DNA of 64,000 bases from Roseococcus sp. SDR (GTDB lineage: Bacteria > Pseudomonadota > Alphaproteobacteria > Acetobacterales > Acetobacteraceae), in contig NZ_JAHRCU010000004.1 of assembly GCF_019083995.1 (NCBI RefSeq), positions 186,001 through 250,000 of the forward strand, in the 5' to 3' direction. The stretch's first letter is position 1. Each line of letters opens with the position of its first letter. Both the position numbers and the translations under genes were made by a program. The notes below the pieces were generated by a model that did not search any database, was not told the origin of the DNA, and was given only the letters and a program-made list of their open reading frames with translations. Shown in pieces: positions 43,659 to 55,162 of the stretch.

Positions 43659-46109
43659 TCAGGGCGAGTTGGAGCGCGGCGATGTCGCGCGTGAGGTGAT
43701 CTCGGCCAGCAGGGCCGCCGCTTCCCGGTCGCGCGGGTCCAAGGCCAGCGCGGCCCGCGCATGCGCCTCGGCTTGCACCAGGCGCCCCCGGTCGCGCTCA
43801 AGCGCAGCCGCCGCGATGAGGCTCTCGCGATGCCGCGGGTTGCGGGCGAGCACGCCGATCGCCTCCTCGGTGCGTCCCTGGCGATGCAGCGCAAGCGCAT
43901 GGGCATAGGCATAGTGCGGCCGCTCTGGCGCGAGCCTGGCCGCGGCCGCCAAGGCCTCGGTCGCCTCGCCCAGCCGGCCCCGCCGGACCTGCAGAAGCGC
44001 CAGCGCATAGATCGGTTCGGCATCAGCCGGGTGCGCGGCCACGGCGCGCCGCAGCAGGGCTTCCGCCGCGTCCGGCTGGCCGCGCGCTTCCTCGAAGGCC
44101 GCCTGGTTCACGAGTGCGGGCAGGAACGCAGGGTCGCGCGCCAGGGCGGCGCGATACGCGGCCTCGGCCCCGGCGCGATCGCCGCGCTGGGCGAGCAGTG
44201 CCGCGATGTTCACATGCGCCTCCGGTCGCTCCGCTGATACGGCCTCGCTGGCCAGCAGTTCCGCCCAGGCGCGTGCGAAGGCCGGACGCGCCGCTTCGGG
44301 CAGCGCGTCGGGCGGCACCGGTGCGAGCGCGCGCGCGGCCTCGATGCGCACCAGCCGTACGTCGTCGGACAGGAGCCGCACGGCGTGCAGACGATTCTGC
44401 GGCGGCAGCCCCTCAAGGGCGCGCAAGGCCGCCGCGCGCACCAGGGGCTCGGGGTCCAGCAGCGTGCCGCCCACCGCCTCGCCCACCGCGCGGCTCGGCC
44501 GGGCAGGCAGCAGCGAGAGCGCCGTGGCGCGCAGGATGGCCGGGTGCGCGCGGTCGAGCGCGAGCCGGGCCAGGGCCTGGTCGGCGCCTGGCGCGGCTTC
44601 CCGGCCCGCATGGATCGCCAGCGCCGGATGCGCCGGGCCGCGCGGGGGACCGTGCCAGGCAGCGAGTTGCGCCGCCGCCCAGGCCTGGGTCTGACCCGCA
44701 TGGCAGGTCGTGCAGACATCGGGCGCCCCGATCGCCGCCGAGACATCGGGCCGCGGGATGCTGAAGGCGTGGTCGCGCCGCCGGTCCACGCCCATGTAGG
44801 TGACGGCAGGCATGTGGCATGCGACGCATTGAGCCCCTGCCCCACCCGAGGCGTGGCGATGATGCTCTGTCGCCTCGAAGCGGCTGGGCAGGTGGCATTG
44901 CGTGCAGACCGCGTTGCCCTCGGCGCGCAGCCGCCCGGTATGCGGCTGGTGGCAATCCGCGCAGACCACGCCGGCGCGCTGCATCCGGCTCTGCGCGAAG
45001 CTGCCCCATTCGAAGACTTCGCCCTGGATCTGGCCATCGGCGTGGTACTCGCCGCGCGCCAGCAGCAGCGGCGCATGGGTGTCCAGGAAGCGCTGCCCGG
45101 GCGGCGGATCGGGCACCAGCGGGCGCGCGCGGGCATGGCAGGGCGCGCAGGTCTCGGTGCCCGCCTGGGTCGCTTGCCGCGGCGGCCCTTCCCAGCGCGC
45201 GATCCCGCGCGCGTCGCCCTCCGCGAAGCGCCAGCCGCCGCCGGATCGGTCGCGCAGCATGACCTCAAGCCCATGATGCGCCACGCCTGGGCGCGCGCCG
45301 TCGCGCGCCCAGGCGACATGGGCGGCGCCGCGGCCGTGGCAGGATTCGCAGCCGACGCTGATCTCGGTCCAGCGCGTATCGTAGCGATCGCGCGCCGCGT
45401 CGTAGCCGCGCACCAGGCCGGTCGAATGGCAGGAGGCGCACATGAAGTTCCAGTTCTGGTCGCGTCCGGTCCAATGCAGCGGATCACCGGCGCGCAGCGG
45501 CTCGTCCGGCAGGAGGTGATACCAGCGTTGCCCACCCTCCTCGCGCGGCCGGCTGTCCCAGGCCCAGGGCAGGACCTGGCGGCGCCCATCGGGCATCAGG
45601 ACAAGATACTGCTGCAGCGGATCGGCGCCGAAGGTCTCGGTGACCGCGAAATCCGCAACGGCGCCGCCCGGGCCGTCGGTCCGGACCAGCCTGCGGTCGC
45701 CGTCGCGCAGGAAGGTGGCGTTGTGCCGTCCATCGGTCACGCTGAGGCCGGAGAAGTCGCCCAGCACGGTCTCCGGCGCGGCCGCCGCCATGGCGCGCGC
45801 ATGATCGCTCGCCTGCCAATCCGCGTATTCCCGCGCATGGCACGCGCCGCATGTGGCCGAGCCGACGAATCCTGCGCGCGCCGCCTCGCGGGCCCTGGGC
45901 TCAGCCGGCGCGGTGACCAGCGCCGCGATGAGGAAGGGCAGCAGGATCATGGCGAGCAAGGCCAGGGAGCCAGCCAGGCGCCGCGCCATCGTCGGCGGGG
46001 GCGACGCGTCGGGAAGCCTGGGCGCCATTGTCGGATCCGGCGTCAGGACCGAAGGGGCAGAAGGCATCGCCCGCCGGACGGGGCCGCCGACATCCTCGCG
46101 GGCGGCCAC
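43659..46109 (-). CDS. Octaheme c-type cytochrome with HEAT/TPR-like repeats
   Basis: An 816-residue protein. A membrane anchor or signal (residues 43-66, AGSLALLAMILLPFLIAALV) precedes eight CXXCH heme sites: CGACH, CASCH, CESCH, CAPCH, CADCH, CTQCH, CVACH and CTTCH. From about residue 500 the chain is all-helical: HEAT-like segments (DPEPLVRAAALRALEGLPPQ), then at least four TPR-like units (GDRAGAEAAYRAALARDPAF; GQPDAAEALLRRAVAAHPAD). The GTG at 46109, with GAGG upstream, is 11 nt past the sulfatase stop; an ATG at residue 41 is the alternative. It probably sits on the periplasmic face and moves electrons; its partner reductase is not evident. Same operon as the sulfatase. Confidence 0.85.
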   Translation of the reverse strand: MAAREDVGGPVRRAMPSAPSVLTPDPTMAPRLPDASPPPTMARRLAGSLALLAMILLPFLIAALVTAPAEPRAREAARAGFVGSATCGACHAREYADWQASDHARAMAAAAPETVLGDFSGLSVTDGRHNATFLRDGDRRLVRTDGPGGAVADFAVTETFGADPLQQYLVLMPDGRRQVLPWAWDSRPREEGGQRWYHLLPDEPLRAGDPLHWTGRDQNWNFMCASCHSTGLVRGYDAARDRYDTRWTEISVGCESCHGRGAAHVAWARDGARPGVAHHGLEVMLRDRSGGGWRFAEGDARGIARWEGPPRQATQAGTETCAPCHARARPLVPDPPPGQRFLDTHAPLLLARGEYHADGQIQGEVFEWGSFAQSRMQRAGVVCADCHQPHTGRLRAEGNAVCTQCHLPSRFEATEHHRHASGGAGAQCVACHMPAVTYMGVDRRRDHAFSIPRPDVSAAIGAPDVCTTCHAGQTQAWAAAQLAAWHGPPRGPAHPALAIHAGREAAPGADQALARLALDRAHPAILRATALSLLPARPSRAVGEAVGGTLLDPEPLVRAAALRALEGLPPQNRLHAVRLLSDDVRLVRIEAARALAPVPPDALPEAARPAFARAWAELLASEAVSAERPEAHVNIAALLAQRGDRAGAEAAYRAALARDPAFLPALVNQAAFEEARGQPDAAEALLRRAVAAHPADAEPIYALALLQVRRGRLGEATEALAAAARLAPERPHYAYAHALALHRQGRTEEAIGVLARNPRHRESLIAAAALERDRGRLVQAEAHARAALALDPRDREAAALLAEITSRATSPRSNSP

Positions 46110-46119
46110 GGCTCCCCTC

Positions 46120-48603
46120 TCAGTTCGCCCGCCGCTGGCGCCGGGCCATCTCCTCCTCCAGCGCCCTGAGCGAGGCCGGCGTGATGGTGCTCTCGCCCAG
46201 GTCGATGGTCAGCCGGCGGATCCGCCCCGTGAAGGGGTTGGGCGAGGTGTAGTCGCGGTCATCGACCGAGGTGCCGGTGTCGAGGCCGACGTCGAAGGTC
46301 TCATCCCAGGCGACGGTGAAGGGCAGCGTGTTCGGCAGCGCGCGCTGCGCCACCTGCGTGCCGTTGACCGTCAGCGTGCCGGTGCCGCCGCGCCCGAAGG
46401 GCAACCCCTGCGGCTCCATCTGCCAGTCGAAGACCAGCGTGTGCCGGCCCGGGGGCAGCGCCGCCGGCGCCTCCCAGCGGTGGTTCCGCGTGCCGAGGAA
46501 GTTCCAGTTGAACACTGGGCGCCCCTGAACGAGGTAGAAGGCATAGCCGGAGAAGCGGCCGCCCTGCGTCACGAGCACGCCATTTGCCCCGCCTTGCGGC
46601 ACCTCGATCTCGGCGGTGACGCGGTAGGAGCGATTGAGCAGGCTCGGCGCCGCGCTGCCCTGGATCGAGTTCACTGGGCCGCTGTAGGTGAACTGGCGAC
46701 GCCCGGCCGCGGGGCCGGGCCGCGCCGAGATGAGCCGCGTCAGGGTGGAGTTGTCGAGCGGCAGCACCTGGTAGCGCGTCGCCTCCGCCAGAAACAGGTC
46801 CTGCAACGCGCGCAGCCGTGCCGGTTCCCGCGCGGCAAGGTTGTTCATCTGCGTCGGGTCCTCGGCGAGGTTGTAGAGTTCCCACGTGTAGCCGTTCATC
46901 ACGTCCGCCGGCTTGGGCGACTGCGAATCCCAGGGCGGGACGGGCGGCGTGGTGCTGGCCATCCAGCCGTCATGATAGATGGCGCGGTTGCCCATGATCT
47001 CGAAATACTGCGTGCGCCGGCGGGACGGCGCATCGCGGTTCGCCGCGTCGAAGGTGTAGGCCATGCTGACGCCCTCGATGGGCCGCTGCGTGACGCCGTT
47101 CACCATGTTGGGCGCCTGGATGCCGACGGCCTCCAGGATGGTCGGCACCACGTCGATGACGTGGTGGAACTGGTGGCGAATGCCGCCACGCTCCGCGATG
47201 CGGCGGGGCCAGGAGATGGCCATGCCATTGCGCGTGCCGCCGAGATGCGAGGCGATCTGCTTCGTCCAGCGGTAGGGCGTATTGAGCGCGAAGGTCCAGC
47301 CGATCGACATGTGGTTGTAGGTGCGGTCATTCCCCCAGTCATCGAGGAAGGGCATCATCTGGTCGACCGTGAAGAATGTGCCGTTGAACCAGGCCACCTC
47401 GTTCACCGTGCCGTCGGGCCCGCCTTCCGCGCTGCCGCCATTGTCGCCGCTGATGTAGATGATCAGGGTGTTGTCGATCTGGCCGGCATCCTCCACCGCC
47501 TGGATCACCCGCCCGATCTCATGGTCGGTATAGGCGAGGTAGGCGGCATAGACCTCCATCTGCCGGGCGTAGAGCCGCCGCTGGTTGTCCGAGAGGCTCT
47601 CCCAGCGCGGAACGTATTCGGGCAGGGGCGGCAATTGCGCATTGGCCGGGATCACCCCCAGGCGGCGCTGGTTCTCGAAGATGCGCTGCCGCAGGACTTC
47701 CCACCCACCGTCGAACTGCCCGCGGAACCGGGCGATCCATTCGGGCGTGGCATGGTGCGGCGCATGCGCGCCGCCCGGGGCGTAGTGGATGAACCAGGGG
47801 CGGTTGGGCGCCACCGAGGTGGTGAGACGAATGTGGTTGATGGCGTCATCGGCCATGGCCGTCGTCAGGTTCCAGCCAGGAACGCCGACATTCGGATGGA
47901 TGGGTGTGGTGTTGCGGAACAGGTTGCCGGGCTGCCACTGGCTCGTGTCGCCACCGACGAAGCCGTAGAAATAGTCATAGCCCTGCCCGGTCGGCCAGTT
48001 GCGGAACGGACCGGCCGGCGTCGACTCCCAGGTCGGCACATTGTGGTTCTTGCCGAACCACGAGGTGGCGTAGCCGACCTCGCGCAGCACCGCCGCGACA
48101 TGGGCGGTCTCGGGCGGGACGATCGAGTTGTAGCCGGGGAAGCCGGTCGTCAGCTCGGAGATCACGCCGGCGCCGACCGAATGGTGGTTGCGGCCCGTCA
48201 GCAGGGCCGCCCGCGTGGGCGAGCACAGCGCCGTGGTGTGGAACTGGGTGTAGCGCAGCCCCGCCTGCGCCACGCGCTCCAGCGCGGGCGTGGGAACGAC
48301 GCCGCCGAAGGTGGAGGGCGCGCCGAAGCCGACATCATCGGTCAGGATGACGAGGACATTGGGCGCGCCTTCCGGCGCGGCGATCTGGGGCGGCCAGGCG
48401 ACCTGGCTGTCGCCCACATTGGGCATGATCGCGCCGGTGAAGGGGGGTGTGGGCGCCGGCAGGCTGAAGCTGTTCGGCGTCATCACGGCGTCGGGGGCGC
48501 CGGGCGCGCCGCGAATTTCCTGCGCGACCGCCCCTGTGGTCATGGCGACCATCGCCAGCCCGCCCAACAACAGGCCGCGGAGTTTCGTGCTCAACCTGGT
48601 CAT
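46120..48603 (-). CDS. Type I arylsulfatase (periplasmic)
   Basis: An 827-residue type I sulfatase. ATG 48603 gives a clean signal peptide (RGLLLGGLAMVAMTTGAVAQ). The metal-binding NVLVILTDDVGFGAPSTFGG (D89, D90) and the active-site C127-S-P-T-R131 followed by AALLTGR are intact, so the cysteine should be converted to formylglycine, which needs a separate FGE not seen here. HYAPGGAHAPHHATPEWIAR and SGDNGGSAEGGPDGTVNE complete the site. The C-terminal 200 residues form an extra beta-rich domain, as in large AtsA-type enzymes. It hydrolyses aryl or other sulfate esters, probably for sulfur supply. Between AraC regulator and octaheme gene. Confidence 0.92.
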   Translation of the reverse strand: MTRLSTKLRGLLLGGLAMVAMTTGAVAQEIRGAPGAPDAVMTPNSFSLPAPTPPFTGAIMPNVGDSQVAWPPQIAAPEGAPNVLVILTDDVGFGAPSTFGGVVPTPALERVAQAGLRYTQFHTTALCSPTRAALLTGRNHHSVGAGVISELTTGFPGYNSIVPPETAHVAAVLREVGYATSWFGKNHNVPTWESTPAGPFRNWPTGQGYDYFYGFVGGDTSQWQPGNLFRNTTPIHPNVGVPGWNLTTAMADDAINHIRLTTSVAPNRPWFIHYAPGGAHAPHHATPEWIARFRGQFDGGWEVLRQRIFENQRRLGVIPANAQLPPLPEYVPRWESLSDNQRRLYARQMEVYAAYLAYTDHEIGRVIQAVEDAGQIDNTLIIYISGDNGGSAEGGPDGTVNEVAWFNGTFFTVDQMMPFLDDWGNDRTYNHMSIGWTFALNTPYRWTKQIASHLGGTRNGMAISWPRRIAERGGIRHQFHHVIDVVPTILEAVGIQAPNMVNGVTQRPIEGVSMAYTFDAANRDAPSRRRTQYFEIMGNRAIYHDGWMASTTPPVPPWDSQSPKPADVMNGYTWELYNLAEDPTQMNNLAAREPARLRALQDLFLAEATRYQVLPLDNSTLTRLISARPGPAAGRRQFTYSGPVNSIQGSAAPSLLNRSYRVTAEIEVPQGGANGVLVTQGGRFSGYAFYLVQGRPVFNWNFLGTRNHRWEAPAALPPGRHTLVFDWQMEPQGLPFGRGGTGTLTVNGTQVAQRALPNTLPFTVAWDETFDVGLDTGTSVDDRDYTSPNPFTGRIRRLTIDLGESTITPASLRALEEEMARRQRRAN

Positions 48604-48731
48604 CCGTTCTGGCTCCACTGGGACACGCCCGGCGACCAAATCGATTGGCGGAGACGTCGCCCGGCTCTCCAAAACTGTCCCACACCGCTTGCGCGGTCGG
48701 TAGAAGCTCTCACTATCCAGATCGGGCAAAC

Positions 48732-49712
48732 TCAGGCGGCCCGGGGGCCATGCCGGCGCGCCAGGGTCTGGGACGGTGTCTCGCCGAAGAGCGCGCGATA
48801 ATCCCGCGCAAAATAGCCGAAGTGCCAGAAGCCGTGCGACAGCGCGACCGACTTCACCTGGCGCTTGGCCCCCTCATCCTCCTGGAGGGCACGACGGGCC
48901 AGCACGAGGCGGCGCATCTTCAGGTAGGCGACAGGACTGAGACCCAGGACGGCGACGAACGCGTCCTGCAGCTTCCGCCGCGACACAGCCAGCGCCTCGC
49001 AGAGCTCGTCGCGGGTGATGGGCCTGGCAAGGTGAGCGCGAAGGAACTCCTCGGCGCCGCGCACCACGCGCAGAGCCTCGCGCGTTGCACGCCCCGGGGT
49101 GAGGGCCACGGCATCGCCGGTCAGGGCGGAGGCGACCATCTCGCGCATGGACAGCGCAAGGATCCTCGCACAATCCGGGCGCCCCAGGACGTCCGGCGGG
49201 GCATCCACCAGCGCGGCCGCCCCTGCATAGGCCGCGGCCAGTGCCGCAGCCGCGGCCGGATCGAGCGCCAGAAGGCGGACCGAACCCGTGACGTGCCCGG
49301 GCATGGGCGCCAATTCGGCCAATTCCTCCAAATAGCCCGCCGGAAAAGCGATCGCCCCCCATTCGAGGGGATCGGGAGCGTAGGCCAGGAACTCAGCGCC
49401 GCCGGGTGCCAGGAGGACGTCCGTCGGCTTGAGCATGGTGCCGTTCAAGCTTGGCGGAACGCCATCGCAGCGGCGCGGAAAGACCAGTCCGACGATGCCG
49501 GGGTCAAAGGCGGCCCGAGCGATGTGGGCCCCGTCCTCGGCGAGTTGGATCACCGTATCGCCCAGACAAACGACCCGAAGTGTGCCCGAGAAAGGCTGGC
49601 CCGGGATGGGCAGATACTCGAACTGCCCGCCGAGCAGGTCCGCCGCGAAATCCTCCGGCTGGGCGAAGCGGCGAAACCCGACAGCGGTCCCTTCTCCGAC
49701 TGCATGCAGCAT
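48732..49712 (-). CDS. AraC-family transcriptional regulator
   Basis: A 326-residue regulator starting at ATG 49712, with GGAGGGGGGAAG upstream. The N-terminal 200 residues are an AraC-binding-like sensor domain (DPGIVGLVFPRRCDGVPPSL and so on). The C-terminal double helix-turn-helix includes RPITRDELCEALAVSRRKLQ and VALSHGFWHFGYFARDYRAL then FGETPSQTL, the classical AraC ending. It lies 128 bp upstream of the arylsulfatase on the same strand and is its likely controller, perhaps activating on a sulfate ester or sulfur limitation (inference). Confidence 0.88.
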   Translation of the reverse strand: MLHAVGEGTAVGFRRFAQPEDFAADLLGGQFEYLPIPGQPFSGTLRVVCLGDTVIQLAEDGAHIARAAFDPGIVGLVFPRRCDGVPPSLNGTMLKPTDVLLAPGGAEFLAYAPDPLEWGAIAFPAGYLEELAELAPMPGHVTGSVRLLALDPAAAAALAAAYAGAAALVDAPPDVLGRPDCARILALSMREMVASALTGDAVALTPGRATREALRVVRGAEEFLRAHLARPITRDELCEALAVSRRKLQDAFVAVLGLSPVAYLKMRRLVLARRALQEDEGAKRQVKSVALSHGFWHFGYFARDYRALFGETPSQTLARRHGPRAA

Positions 49713-50347: not shown

Positions 50348-52015
50348 ATGCGCCTTCTGCTGCTTCTCATCCTCTCGTTCGGCCTCGCCGCGCCTCTCCA
50401 GGCCCATCCGGGCCATGATGAGCAGGCACCGCCCGTTGCCGCCGCCCTGCCCCGCACCGAGGCGCATAGCGAGGCCTTCGAGATCGTTGCCGTCCTTGGG
50501 CCTGGCGGCGTGCTAACCCTCTGGCTCGACCGCTGGGCGGACAATGCGCCGGTGGATGGTGCCATCTCGCTGACCATCGAGGGGCGGGAGGCCGCGGCCC
50601 AACGCCAGGGCATCGGCATCTTTGTCGCCCGGCACCCGGCGCTGGCCCAGGCCGGGCGGCGGGACATCGTCTTCACCGTGACCGCGGGCGATGAGATGGA
50701 CCTGCTCACCGCGACACTGGACGTTCCGACGCCCCCTGGCCTTGCCGGTGGGAATGCGAGCCTGGCCGAATGGATCCAGGGCGCTCCCGTGCAGATCGGT
50801 GGCGGGATCGCGCTGCTACTGCTGGGCGTGCTGCTCGGCCGGGGTTCCGTTCGGCGCCCGCTCCCGCCCATGGTGGACCAGACGACCACGAGCGAGCCCG
50901 CCCCGTCACCGCAGCCGGCTCTCCCGCGCCGCGTCGCCGCCTTGGCCACGGCCTCCCTCCTAGTCGGCCTGGGTGCACCGGCCTGGTCGGAGACGGCATC
51001 GCCCGCATCGGCTCCGGCCGAAGCGCCCCGCCGGCTAGAGGATGGGGCGATCTTCCTGCCAAAGGCCTCCCAGCGCCTGCTGGCCATCCGCACGCAGTTG
51101 GCCGAGGCGGGCGAGGCTTCGGCCGCCGTCCGCATGGTGGGAACCCTGGTGCCGGACCCCAACGCCTCCGGGCGCGTCCAGCCGAGCCAAACCGGGCGGC
51201 TGGAACCAGGCGACCAAGGCTTCCCCACGCTCGGCCAGCGGGTGGAGCGCGGCCAGGTCCTCGCCTATGTCACGCCCACCTACACCGCGGCCGAGCGCGG
51301 CGGCCTGATCCAGAATGCCGCCGAACTGGACGCCCAGATCACCATCCTGGAGGCCCGGGTTCGGCGCCTGACCTCGCTGCGCGGCACCGTTGCCGAGCGC
51401 GAGATCCAGGATGCCCAGGCCGAGCTCGCCGGAGCCAGGCAGCGCCGCACGGCCATCCAGCCTGCGCTCTCCGGGCGCGAGCCGCTGGTGGCCCCCGTCG
51501 CCGGCATCGTCTCCACCGTGCGCGGCGCGGTCGGCCAGCTCGTGGACAGCGCCGTCACTGTCTTCGACATCGTGGACCCCTCGCGCCTCTGGGTGGAGGC
51601 GCTGGCCTTTGACCGCGCAGCGGTGGAGCGCGTCACGGGCGCCACCGCGACCCTCGCCGATGGCCGGGTGCTGGAACTCGGCTTCGTGGGCCGCGGCCTC
51701 ACCGTCCGGCAACAGGCGATCCCGATGAACTTCCGCGTCGAGGCGCCGCCGGCGGATGCGCCCATCGGCGCCTCCGTCCTCGTCACGCTGCGCACGGCGC
51801 GCGGCGTGCAGGGGCTGGTGCTGCCGGCCGACGCCGTGGTGCGCTCAGCCGAAGGGCCGCCCGTCGTCTTCGAGCATGCCACGGCGGAACGCTTCCTGCC
51901 GCGCCAGGTGCGCGTGCAGCCGCTGGACGGCAGCCGTGTCGTGGTGACGGCCGGGCTCGAACCCGGGCGGCGCGTCGTGATCCAGGGTGCCGCGCTGATC
52001 GCGCAGGTGCGCTGA
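50348..52015 (+). CDS. RND efflux periplasmic adaptor (CzcB/CusB-like) with extra N-terminal module
   Basis: A 555-residue membrane-fusion protein; ATG 50348 has GGAG 7 nt upstream. The C-terminal two-thirds is a normal adaptor: lipoyl half GRLEPGDQGFPTLGQRVERG, an alpha-hairpin (about 318-372, with AAELDAQITILEARVRRLTS), and the beta-barrel part VFDIVDPSRLWVEALAFDRA. Before it stands something extra: a signal peptide (residues 1-19) and HPGHDEQ, a small beta domain, a transmembrane helix (152-167, GGGIALLLLGVLLGRG) and a second signal-like hydrophobic stretch (195-217, RRVAALATASLLVGLGAPAW). This looks like two exported proteins joined. It is 3 nt from the pump gene. Confidence 0.88.
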   Translation: MRLLLLLILSFGLAAPLQAHPGHDEQAPPVAAALPRTEAHSEAFEIVAVLGPGGVLTLWLDRWADNAPVDGAISLTIEGREAAAQRQGIGIFVARHPALAQAGRRDIVFTVTAGDEMDLLTATLDVPTPPGLAGGNASLAEWIQGAPVQIGGGIALLLLGVLLGRGSVRRPLPPMVDQTTTSEPAPSPQPALPRRVAALATASLLVGLGAPAWSETASPASAPAEAPRRLEDGAIFLPKASQRLLAIRTQLAEAGEASAAVRMVGTLVPDPNASGRVQPSQTGRLEPGDQGFPTLGQRVERGQVLAYVTPTYTAAERGGLIQNAAELDAQITILEARVRRLTSLRGTVAEREIQDAQAELAGARQRRTAIQPALSGREPLVAPVAGIVSTVRGAVGQLVDSAVTVFDIVDPSRLWVEALAFDRAAVERVTGATATLADGRVLELGFVGRGLTVRQQAIPMNFRVEAPPADAPIGASVLVTLRTARGVQGLVLPADAVVRSAEGPPVVFEHATAERFLPRQVRVQPLDGSRVVVTAGLEPGRRVVIQGAALIAQVR

Positions 52016-52018
52016 GCC

Positions 52019-55000
52019 ATGTTCTTCAACGCCATCATCGGCTTCTCGCTGCGCAACCGGATCTTCGTGCTGGTCGCGGCCCTGCTGGTCACGGGCTACG
52101 GGCTCTTCACCGCCGCCCGCATGCCGGTGGATGTCTTCCCCGATCTCAACAAGCCCACCGTGACCCTGATGACCGAGGCGGAAGGCTACGCCCCGGAGGA
52201 GGTGGAGCAGCTCGTCTCCTTCCCGATCGAGACGGCGGTGAACGGCCTGCCGGGGGTGACGCGCGTGCGCTCCGTCTCCTCCGTCGGGCTCTCCATCGTC
52301 TATGTCGAGTTCGACTGGGGCGTGGACATCTGGCGCGCCCGGCAGCAGGTCAGTGAAAGGCTGAACCAGATCCAGTCCCAGCTGCCGCCGCGCGTCCTGC
52401 CGGCCATGGCGCCCGTCTCCTCCATCATGGGCGAGATCATGCTGGTGGCCGTCACGGCGCCCCCCGATGGCAGCGTGAACCCGATGCAGCTGCGCGAGCT
52501 GGCGGATTGGGTGATGCGCCCGCGCCTGCTCACCATTCCCGGCATCAGCCAGGTGATCCCGATGGGCGGCGAGGTGCGGCAGTTCCGCGTCATGCCTGAC
52601 CTCGACCGCGTGCAGGCGCTGGCGCTCACGCATGTCGAGCTTCTGACGGCGCTCCGGCAATTCGGCGTGAATGCCGGTGGCGGCTATGTGGACCAGGCGG
52701 GGCGCGAGTTCCTGATCCGCAACATCGGTCGCACCACCGCCCTCGAGGATCTTCGCAACGCCACCGTCGCCTTCCGCGAGGGGCAGCCCATCGCGCTGCG
52801 CCAGGTGGCGAATGTGGACTACGCCCCCCGCGCCAAGCGCGGCGAGGCGGGGGTGGATGGCATGCCCGCGGTGATCCTCGCCATCTCGAAGCAGCCCGGC
52901 GCCGACACCATCCGCCTCACGCGCGCGGTGGAAGCGGCATTGCGCGAGTTGCAGGCCGGCATGCCCCGTGGTGTCACGGCCGACCGCGTGAAGTTCCGTC
53001 AGGCCGACTTCATCGAGCAATCCATCGCCAACCTGCAGCAGGTGCTGAAGGAGGCCTTCCTGGTCGTGGCGCTCGTCCTCTTCGCCTTCCTGCTGAATGT
53101 GAGGACGACCTTCATCTCGCTGACCGCGATCCCGCTTTCCATCCTGCTGACGGCGATCGTCTTCGCGGCCTTCGGGCTTTCCATCAACACCATGACACTG
53201 GGCGGCATCGCCATCGCGGTGGGCGAGCTGGTGGATGACGCCGTGGTGGATGTGGAGAACATCTTCCGCCGCCTGCGCGAGAACGCGGCGGCCCCTGCCC
53301 CGCGTCCGGCCATCGAGGTGGTGGCGACGGCCTCAGCCGAAGTGCGCTCGGGCATCGTCTATGCGACCTTCATCATCGTCCTGGTCTTCCTGCCACTCTT
53401 CGCGCTTTCGGGCATCGAGGGGCGGCTCTTCGCGCCGCTTGGCATCGCCTACATCGTCTCCATCCTCGCCTCGCTGCTGGTGGCGGTGACGGTGACGCCC
53501 GTCCTCTCCTATTGGCTCCTGCCGGGCCTGCGCGGGGCGGCGGGGCATGAGAGCTGGTTGGTGCGGGCACTGAAGCGCGGCAATGACGCCGCGCTGCGCT
53601 GGGCCTTCGGCCATCACGGGCTGGTGCTGGGCCTGGCTGGCGGCGGCGTGGCGCTGGCCGCGGCCAGCGCGCCCTTCCTGCCCCGCACCTTCCTGCCCCC
53701 CTTCAATGAAGGCACGGTGGTGGTCAGCCTGACCTACCAGCCCGGCATTTCGCTTGCGCAGAGCGATGCGCTGGGCCGCGTGGCCGAGCACCTGCTGCTC
53801 GCCATCCCCGAGGTGAAGGGCGTGGGCCGCCGCACCGGCCGCGCCGAACTCGACGAGCATGCCGAGGGCGTCCACTCCTCCGAGCTGGACCTCGACCTGC
53901 GCGAAGGCGGGCGACCGCGTGGGGAAGTCCTGGCCGAGATCCGCGCGCGCCTCTCCGCGCTGCCCGCCGCGGTCAATCTCGGCCAGCCCATCAGCCACCG
54001 GCTGGACCACATGCTCTCCGGCGTGCGGGCGCAGATCGCGCTCAAGGTCTTCGGCGACGATCTCGACACGCTGCGCACCCTGTCGGAGACGCTGCGCGCG
54101 CGCCTCGCCGCCCAAGTGCCGGGCCTGGCCGACCTCCAACTCGAACGCCAGGTACGCGTGCCGCAGTTGCGCATCGCCGTCGATCATGAGCGCGCGGCGC
54201 TCTACGGCGTCTCGGCCGCGACGCTGATGGAGGTGCTGCAATCGCTCACCAGCGGCACCGTCGTCAGCCAGATCACCGACGGCGTGCGCCGCTTCGACGT
54301 GGTGCTGCGCCTGGCTGATGAGGATCGCACCACCGCCCGCCTCGCCGAGGCGCTGGTCGAGACGCCGGGCGGGCGCGTGCCGCTGCGCATGCTGGCGCGC
54401 GTCGAGGAATCGGACGGCCCCAACCAGATCCTGCGCGAGGGTGCGCGCCGCCGCATGGTGGTGCTGGCCAACACCGCGCCGGGCGCCGACATGGCGGCCG
54501 TCATCGCAGGCATCCGCGCCGAACTCGCCCGCATGCCCCTGCCGCCGGGCTACGCCACCAGCCTGGAGGGCACCTTCCAGGCGCAGGAAGAGGCGATGCG
54601 GACCATCGCGGTGCTGGCCGCCATCTCGCTCTCGCTCATCTTCGTGGTGCTCTATTCACGCTACCGCTCGGCGGCGCTGGCGGCGATCATCATGGGCAAT
54701 GTGCCGCTCGCCCTGATCGGCGCCGTGGCCGCCCTCTGGATCGCAGAGCAGCCGCTCTCGGTCGCGACGCTGGTGGGCTTCGTGACGCTGACCGGCATCA
54801 CCACGCGCAACGGCATCCTGAAGGTCAGCCACTACCTCAACCTCGCCCTGCATGAGGGCGAGCGCTGGGGCCTGGCACTCATCCTGCGCGGCAGCGCCGA
54901 GCGGCTGACGCCGGTGCTGATGACGGCGCTCTCAGCCGGGCTAGCACTCATCCCGCTCGCCATCGGTGCGGATGCGCCGGGCAAGGAGATCCTGCATCCG

Positions 55001-55162
55001 GTCGCCATCACCATCCTGGGCGGGCTGGTGAGTGCGACGCTGCTCGACACCTTCGTCACGCCGCTCCTCTTCCACCGCTACGGCCGGCCCGCATTGGAGC
55101 GTCTGCGCCTGGAGACCGCCGCACCTGGGCCGAATGGCCGGGTGGCGGCCGAAACCTTCTGA
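52019..55162 (+). CDS. HME-RND heavy-metal efflux pump (CzcA/CusA family)
   Basis: Full length at 1047 residues. The N-terminal helix [40 protein letters not shown] and [20 protein letters not shown] are standard for HME-RND pumps. The proton-relay helix TM4 carries [18 protein letters not shown]. Twelve membrane segments and two large periplasmic loops fit the length. It moves metal ions from periplasm to outside with the adaptor at 50348; no outer-membrane channel gene is in the window, so it probably borrows a TolC-like protein. The metal is not certain; CopZ, DUF411 and Met-rich neighbours point to copper or silver. Confidence 0.93.

Follow-up and report, generated by a model that had tools for sequence, protein, structure and literature searches.

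In the 64,000-nucleotide stretch of Roseococcus sp. SDR DNA analysed here (the window; positions 186,001 to 250,000 of contig NZ_JAHRCU010000004.1), the gene for a putative exported formylglycine-type sulfatase is followed on the minus strand by the gene for an octaheme c-type cytochrome with a HEAT/TPR repeat arm, and we consider it probable, at about 0.85, that the two proteins function together. The proposal of the original prediction that sulfatase and cytochrome belong together is supported, homologues of the two genes lying near each other in 24 of 38 loci from a sample of the phylum, against 0.9 expected. That prediction had also stated that no system with this pairing has been described; none was found in the open-access literature, and we regard the locus as combining established folds and an established enzyme in a conserved pairing for which no description was found there.

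Conservation of the pair was assessed in an even draw of 398 genomes from the phylum, 35 of which carry the cytochrome at E 1e-60. Among the 39 cytochrome loci of this sample outside the window's genome, 24 have a sulfatase gene within 6 kb. Of the 29 sulfatases concerned, 19 share the cytochrome's strand, and at 18 loci no gene intervenes between sulfatase and cytochrome. One locus cut by a contig edge (L133) is treated as negative in the 39-locus count and excluded from the 38-locus count, in which 24 loci and 15 of the 20 genera are positive; another (L123), in which a frame read as a CTAGR-type sulfatase lies slightly more than 6 kb away, is scored as a miss. The expectation of 0.9 loci is based on 245 PF00884 matches in 34 genomes (33 of the phylum sample and G067), the locus sulfatases having been found instead by a profile iterated from the window's sulfatase, and 200000 simulations of chance adjacency reached a maximum of 8 loci. 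Chance adjacency, which has nothing in its favour other than the loci without a sulfatase, is therefore rejected at this sampling and retains a negligible share of our confidence. The sulfatase is also the commonest among all cytochrome neighbours counted.

Co-occurrence at the genome level points in the same direction. In the 398-genome sample, PF00884, a family that also includes non-sulfatase enzymes, is matched at E 1e-35 in all 35 cytochrome genomes and in 212 of the 363 others (p 4e-8). In a sample of the window's family (120 genomes), 12 carry the cytochrome, 12 a sulfatase scoring above 600 bits and 9 both (p 4e-9), the 600-bit line having been picked after the scores were seen; at E 1e-60 the sulfatase is found in 18 genomes and both in 9. 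The nine genomes with both carry them on a shared contig in seven cases and on separate contigs in two. Two candidates per genome were scored in the 398-genome cytochrome scan, and 5, 6 and 4 in later scans, so that extra copies can be missed.

An earlier scan of genome contigs, in which the best 80 of 101 cytochrome relatives were used and which is biased towards close relatives, provides a finer view around the window. The group that we term Acetobacteraceae-like comprises L012, L014-L041 and the window. With the window and its second copy counted, 25 of its 30 loci have a sulfatase no more than 6 kb away, and all 29 sulfatases are on the cytochrome's strand; in the five negative loci, the cytochrome is less than 2 kb from the start of the locus and little upstream sequence is visible. 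Among the 52 remaining loci, 25 have a sulfatase within that distance, 15 of the 25 sulfatases being on the cytochrome's strand. The second copy is a side-by-side pair in the window's own genome (L012, contig C15), of which both the cytochrome and the sulfatase are 69% identical to those of the window. Within the window's sulfatase class, cytochrome and sulfatase pair distances correlate (Mantel r 0.83 against a maximum of 0.47 in 2000 shuffles, 31 loci), which partly reflects shared species history. The nearest relatives by cytochrome and by sulfatase sometimes differ (e.g., L016 and the window), and some partners may have been exchanged. Genes in the fetched loci were called by a home-made codon-usage caller rather than an annotation pipeline; an apparent fusion gene at L078 (a 1187-residue frame) was rejected as an artefact, as this frame runs in from the contig edge and its first 400 residues look antisense.

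The sulfatase gene occupies an open frame spanning 46120-48729, within which an ATG at 48603, opening a Sec-type signal peptide, is likelier as the start than the frame start at 48729, giving a predicted coding region of 46120..48603 (-). The product matches PF00884 with 189.5 bits against a cut-off of 25 (E 1.1e-55), and its CSPTR formylglycine motif (residues 169-173 in the frame read from 48729) corresponds to a computed position of 48211..48225 (-). PF00884 membership together with this motif of the C-x-P/A-x-R type marks the gene as a probable formylglycine (S1-type) sulfatase. Its best solved relatives are the arylsulfatases 4cxk (1.8e-59) and 1hdh (2.5e-59), both from Pseudomonas aeruginosa, with which it shares the sulfatase core and the aligned catalytic positions: CSPTR, TDD, GKNH, GAH, GDN and TK are all present and aligned with 4cxk at metal-binding and catalytic positions, although in 4cxk the motif Cys itself is replaced (printed SAASPTR). 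Unlike these enzymes, the window sulfatase has about 225 extra residues past the aligned core as well as a signal peptide, and its C-terminal region is weakly similar to Laminin_G_3 (E 0.011, under the cut-off). Seven PF00884 matches were found in the genome. Contig C3, on which no cytochrome was found, carries a further sulfatase of this broad type, the third, which is 39% identical.

The cytochrome (43659..46109, minus strand, 816 residues) carries eight CXXCH motifs, at residues 87, 224, 254, 321, 383, 402, 428 and 466, exactly the number that had been predicted. Across 118 cytochrome sequences, eight motifs were counted in 111, seven in six and six in one, though some called frames may start late. 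The predicted HEAT/TPR-like helical region was borne out in its TPR part (TPR_2, E 2.3e-8) and in being helical throughout residues 475-809 of an AlphaFold2 model (mean predicted local distance difference test score, pLDDT, 89.8), whereas HEAT stays under its Pfam cut-off (E 0.0013, 19.2 bits against 23.5). The HEAT-like helices and TPR repeats occupy residues 501-809 (43683..44609, minus strand), and a single hydrophobic helix at residues 41-65 could serve either as a signal peptide or as a membrane anchor. The whole protein passes Pfam models of a generic kind, for heme motifs and TPR repeats, and the heme domain scanned alone passes an NCBIfam doubled-CXXCH domain. No full-length NCBIfam model was reached, the best scoring 62 bits against 312 required, and the DmsE-like model TIGR03508 gave 32.6 bits against a cut-off of 192.2, with eight hemes here versus ten in the DmsE-like decaheme cytochromes. 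The protein was therefore not placed in a known family by these models, a placement that would have counted against the original prediction; its heme domain does show a relationship to the NrfA/MccA/OcwA superfamily.

This relationship emerged when the heme domain (residues 75-500; 44610..45887, minus strand), which has an OcwA-type and possibly MccA-type fold in which strands lie between hemes 1 and 2, was folded and searched alone, a fold search with the whole cytochrome having been swamped by TPR matches. OcwA, the nonaheme surface cytochrome of Thermincola potens (PDB 6i5b), is the closest among the matches listed; HAO and OTR are not among the 50 matches listed, which excludes nothing. 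While the heme-domain fold is common to both, the window cytochrome has eight hemes rather than nine, lacks an equivalent of heme 5 in the profile alignment, carries the HEAT/TPR arm in place of OcwA's three-helix bundle, and belongs to a family with a sulfatase neighbour. The HH pair over OcwA heme 5 is partly retained (H416 in 118 of 118 sequences, H417 in 89 of 118) even though heme 5 itself is missing. In OcwA, hemes 1, 3, 4, 6, 7 and 8 are bis-His coordinated, heme 9 has His/Met ligands and heme 2 is left open (PMC6703420). Outside the CXXCH motifs, the 118 cytochrome sequences contain six invariant or nearly invariant His, the number expected if the hemes are coordinated as in OcwA, together with three invariant Met. 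The near-invariant residues E364, Q373, S374 and M376 align, weakly, with the pocket of the open heme 2 of OcwA, whose HH pair aligns, again weakly, with window residues 375-376 (R/K, M). On account of the six conserved His and this conserved stretch, heme 2 of the window cytochrome (CXXCH at 224) is proposed as the substrate-binding heme.

It could be imagined that the octaheme enzyme acts, like the octaheme sulfite reductase MccA (PDB 4rkm/4rkn), on sulfite or another sulfur oxyanion made near the sulfatase. The product of a sulfatase, however, is sulfate and not sulfite. In addition, the copper of MccA is held by Cys ligands, and among the 118 sequences Cys is not the commonest residue at any position outside CXXCH, so that this cytochrome family, which also differs in its HEAT/TPR arm, would have no MccA-type copper site; we regard action on a sulfur oxyanion as improbable. 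Copper in MccA, and a catalytic CXXCK heme in most NrfA, are both described in PMC6703420; all eight window motifs are CXXCH, and the NrfA-type heme is absent. A partial parallel is offered by freshwater Verrucomicrobia, in which sulfatase genes often lie near Planctomycete-type (PSCyt) cytochrome c genes and a role in carbohydrate degradation is discussed (PMC5615132). The arrangement of sulfatase genes near cytochrome genes is alike, but the cytochrome family is another one: no PSCyt model is among the 22 Pfam families matching the window cytochrome at E 0.1.

The role considered most likely for the cytochrome is that of a redox enzyme tied to organosulfate processing. Judging from family knowledge, both proteins would be exported, and the sulfatase, after cytoplasmic maturation by the FGE-like enzyme that this genome encodes, would hydrolyse a sulfate ester in the periplasm. 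The cytochrome may be an oxidoreductase and more than a wire, with seven hemes conducting electrons and heme 2 binding the substrate. In the weakest step of the scheme, it would oxidise the product unmasked by desulfation and pass the electrons to the respiratory chain, and the HEAT/TPR arm would dock the sulfatase or a shared partner; the original prediction had likewise suggested electrons from a released phenol, or repeats that hold the sulfatase. This full mechanism, a conserved exported module for organosulfate processing whose cytochrome oxidises the desulfated product, is put forward as a tentative possibility.

The surroundings of the cytochrome bear on how far this mechanism can be taken. 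Single-linkage clustering at 38% identity divides the 83 neighbouring sulfatases into six classes, a number that is approximate with this procedure, with 35 loci in the window's class, 25 in the CTAGR class, and 7, 4, 2 and 1 in the others; with six classes, an aryl-specific role becomes less likely. Other neighbours were counted within 7 kb by single-protein query searches over 122 loci, which include one from the family sample (L134) outside the 39 phylum-sample loci. MoxR and DUF58 occur together in 17 loci (L065, L073, L093, L105, L106, L109-L114, L117-L121 and L127), 11 of which have a CTAGR sulfatase near, and they also appear where no sulfatase lies within 6 kb of the cytochrome (e.g., L110 and L118); a Pfam check of one locus, L119, revealed a full cluster of MoxR, DUF58, DUF4381, two vWA proteins and BatD. 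An exported-looking HAD hydrolase of about 340 residues is present in 11 loci (L031, L043, L066, L078, L081, L085, L089, L106, L116, L124 and L129), accompanied by a CTAGR sulfatase in nine of them, and DUF1254/DUF1214-type proteins in six (L030, L037, L050, L088, L091 and L102), whose labels, where given, are Roseomonas, Gammaproteobacteria and Planctomycetes. Proteins read as outer-membrane barrels, a point in favour of the proposed module, were counted in 26 loci, with Pfam support for two of the four scanned. A link to SoxB at L071 was discarded, the neighbour matching 5′-nucleotidase and SoxB models alike and reaching no cut-off.

Several observations weigh against a direct partnership in organosulfate oxidation. 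If the cytochrome acts on the organic product, it is odd that a single type accompanies six classes of sulfatase, and the HAD and DUF1254 loci hint at a link with exported hydrolases generally. No recurring electron acceptor was seen among the cytochrome neighbours examined. The part of the OcwA profile alignment over the heme 2 pocket and heme 4 scores just 4.4 bits, and the heme coordination is deduced from residue counts and this one alignment. Furthermore, no sulfatase lies within 6 kb in 14 of the 38 phylum-sample loci and in 27 of the 52 first-scan loci outside the Acetobacteraceae-like group, and outside that group many neighbouring sulfatases are on the opposite strand (same strand in 15 of 25 and 19 of 29), so that a single transcript is not the rule.

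Alternatively, the cytochrome may be a terminal reductase or an electron carrier of general use in the periplasm or at the surface, residing in islands that serve to scavenge sulfate and phosphate esters of organic compounds and playing no direct role with the sulfatase. Consistent with such a role are the closest fold match, OcwA, for which a function of this kind is proposed, the recurrence of the HAD, DUF1254 and MoxR/DUF58 neighbours, and the third or more of sulfatases on the other strand outside the Acetobacteraceae-like group; OcwA exchanges electrons with electrodes and shuttles and reduces nitrite (PMC6703420, PMC7911101). Such a shared neighbourhood does not, however, lead one to expect that the sulfatase would be the commonest neighbour and directly adjacent in nearly half of the phylum-sample loci, or invariably on the cytochrome's strand in the Acetobacteraceae-like cases, and the three-helix bundle of OcwA in place of the HEAT/TPR arm limits the analogy. 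Given the weak alignment at the heme 2 pocket and the lack of a uniform strand pattern outside the Acetobacteraceae-like group, the full mechanism was weighted down and the shared neighbourhood up somewhat, and we hold the latter to be a substantial possibility, well short of an even chance.

A different connection would be through sulfatase maturation, the cytochrome taking electrons in the making, repair or checking of the formylglycine of exported sulfatases. The Cys motif is a common feature of the sulfatase classes, being present in 80 of the 83 neighbouring sulfatases (the other three are a frame of 347 residues at L088 and contig-edge fragments at L021 and L074). A protein partner is suggested by the TPR/HEAT arm, and 9 of the 35 cytochrome genomes have neither an FGE-like (PF03781, E 1e-33) nor an anSME (TIGR03942, E 1e-60) match at the thresholds that we set. 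Genomes with the cytochrome are nevertheless not depleted in maturases (26 of 35 have a match, against 139 of 212 other PF00884 genomes, p 0.34), which gives no sign of maturase replacement, and a substitute maturase was rejected on this comparison. The window's genome itself has one strong FGE match (4.3e-81; one TAG is reported inside it). Two genomes, G352 and G484 (loci L135-L141), have 17 and 11 PF00884 matches, many of Cys type; in G352 there is no PF03781 or TIGR03942 match at E 0.001, and in G484 the sole PF03781 match (1.5e-8) falls in a 1024-residue frame and no anSME match exceeds the cut-off. Many of their Cys-type sulfatases lie far from the cytochrome, which argues against this explanation, and a maturation role appears decidedly improbable. 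A more specific version, that exported formylglycine sulfatases, whatever their class, are bound by the arm and have their active-site residue oxidised, repaired or regulated by the cytochrome, we hold to be very improbable; if true, such a sulfatase-acting heme enzyme would couple sulfatase activation to the periplasmic redox state.

Reading along the minus strand, an AraC-family regulator precedes the sulfatase and the cytochrome. Its gene (48732..49712, minus strand, 326 residues; PF12833, E 1.5e-20) begins with an ATG at 49712 that has a GGAGG-like stretch shortly upstream. The operon had been predicted to stand under this regulator; the AraC gene does not belong to the conserved unit and is a lineage-limited accessory. 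A homologue lies within 7 kb in 11 of the 35 loci with the window's sulfatase class (class 0), upstream in nine of these 35, and in 15 of the 122 loci overall, and no homologue was found within 7 kb of the second pair (L012). The 11-nucleotide spacing initially given between sulfatase and cytochrome is about right if the cytochrome starts at GTG 46109 (10 nucleotides between), just upstream of which is AGGGGA, and fails if one of the possible internal starts (ATG 46067, 46028 or 45989) is used; cytochrome N-termini vary among relatives, and residues 6-36 of the window protein have pLDDT below 50. Divergent genes at 50348-55162 (+) resemble, as read from sequence, those for a metal-efflux membrane-fusion protein and an RND pump.

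Sulfatases are usually regarded as plain hydrolases. The recurrence of this cytochrome beside six sulfatase classes, along with its co-presence with PF00884 genes in 35 of 35 genomes, suggests a frequent coupling between the use of organosulfates and electron transfer.

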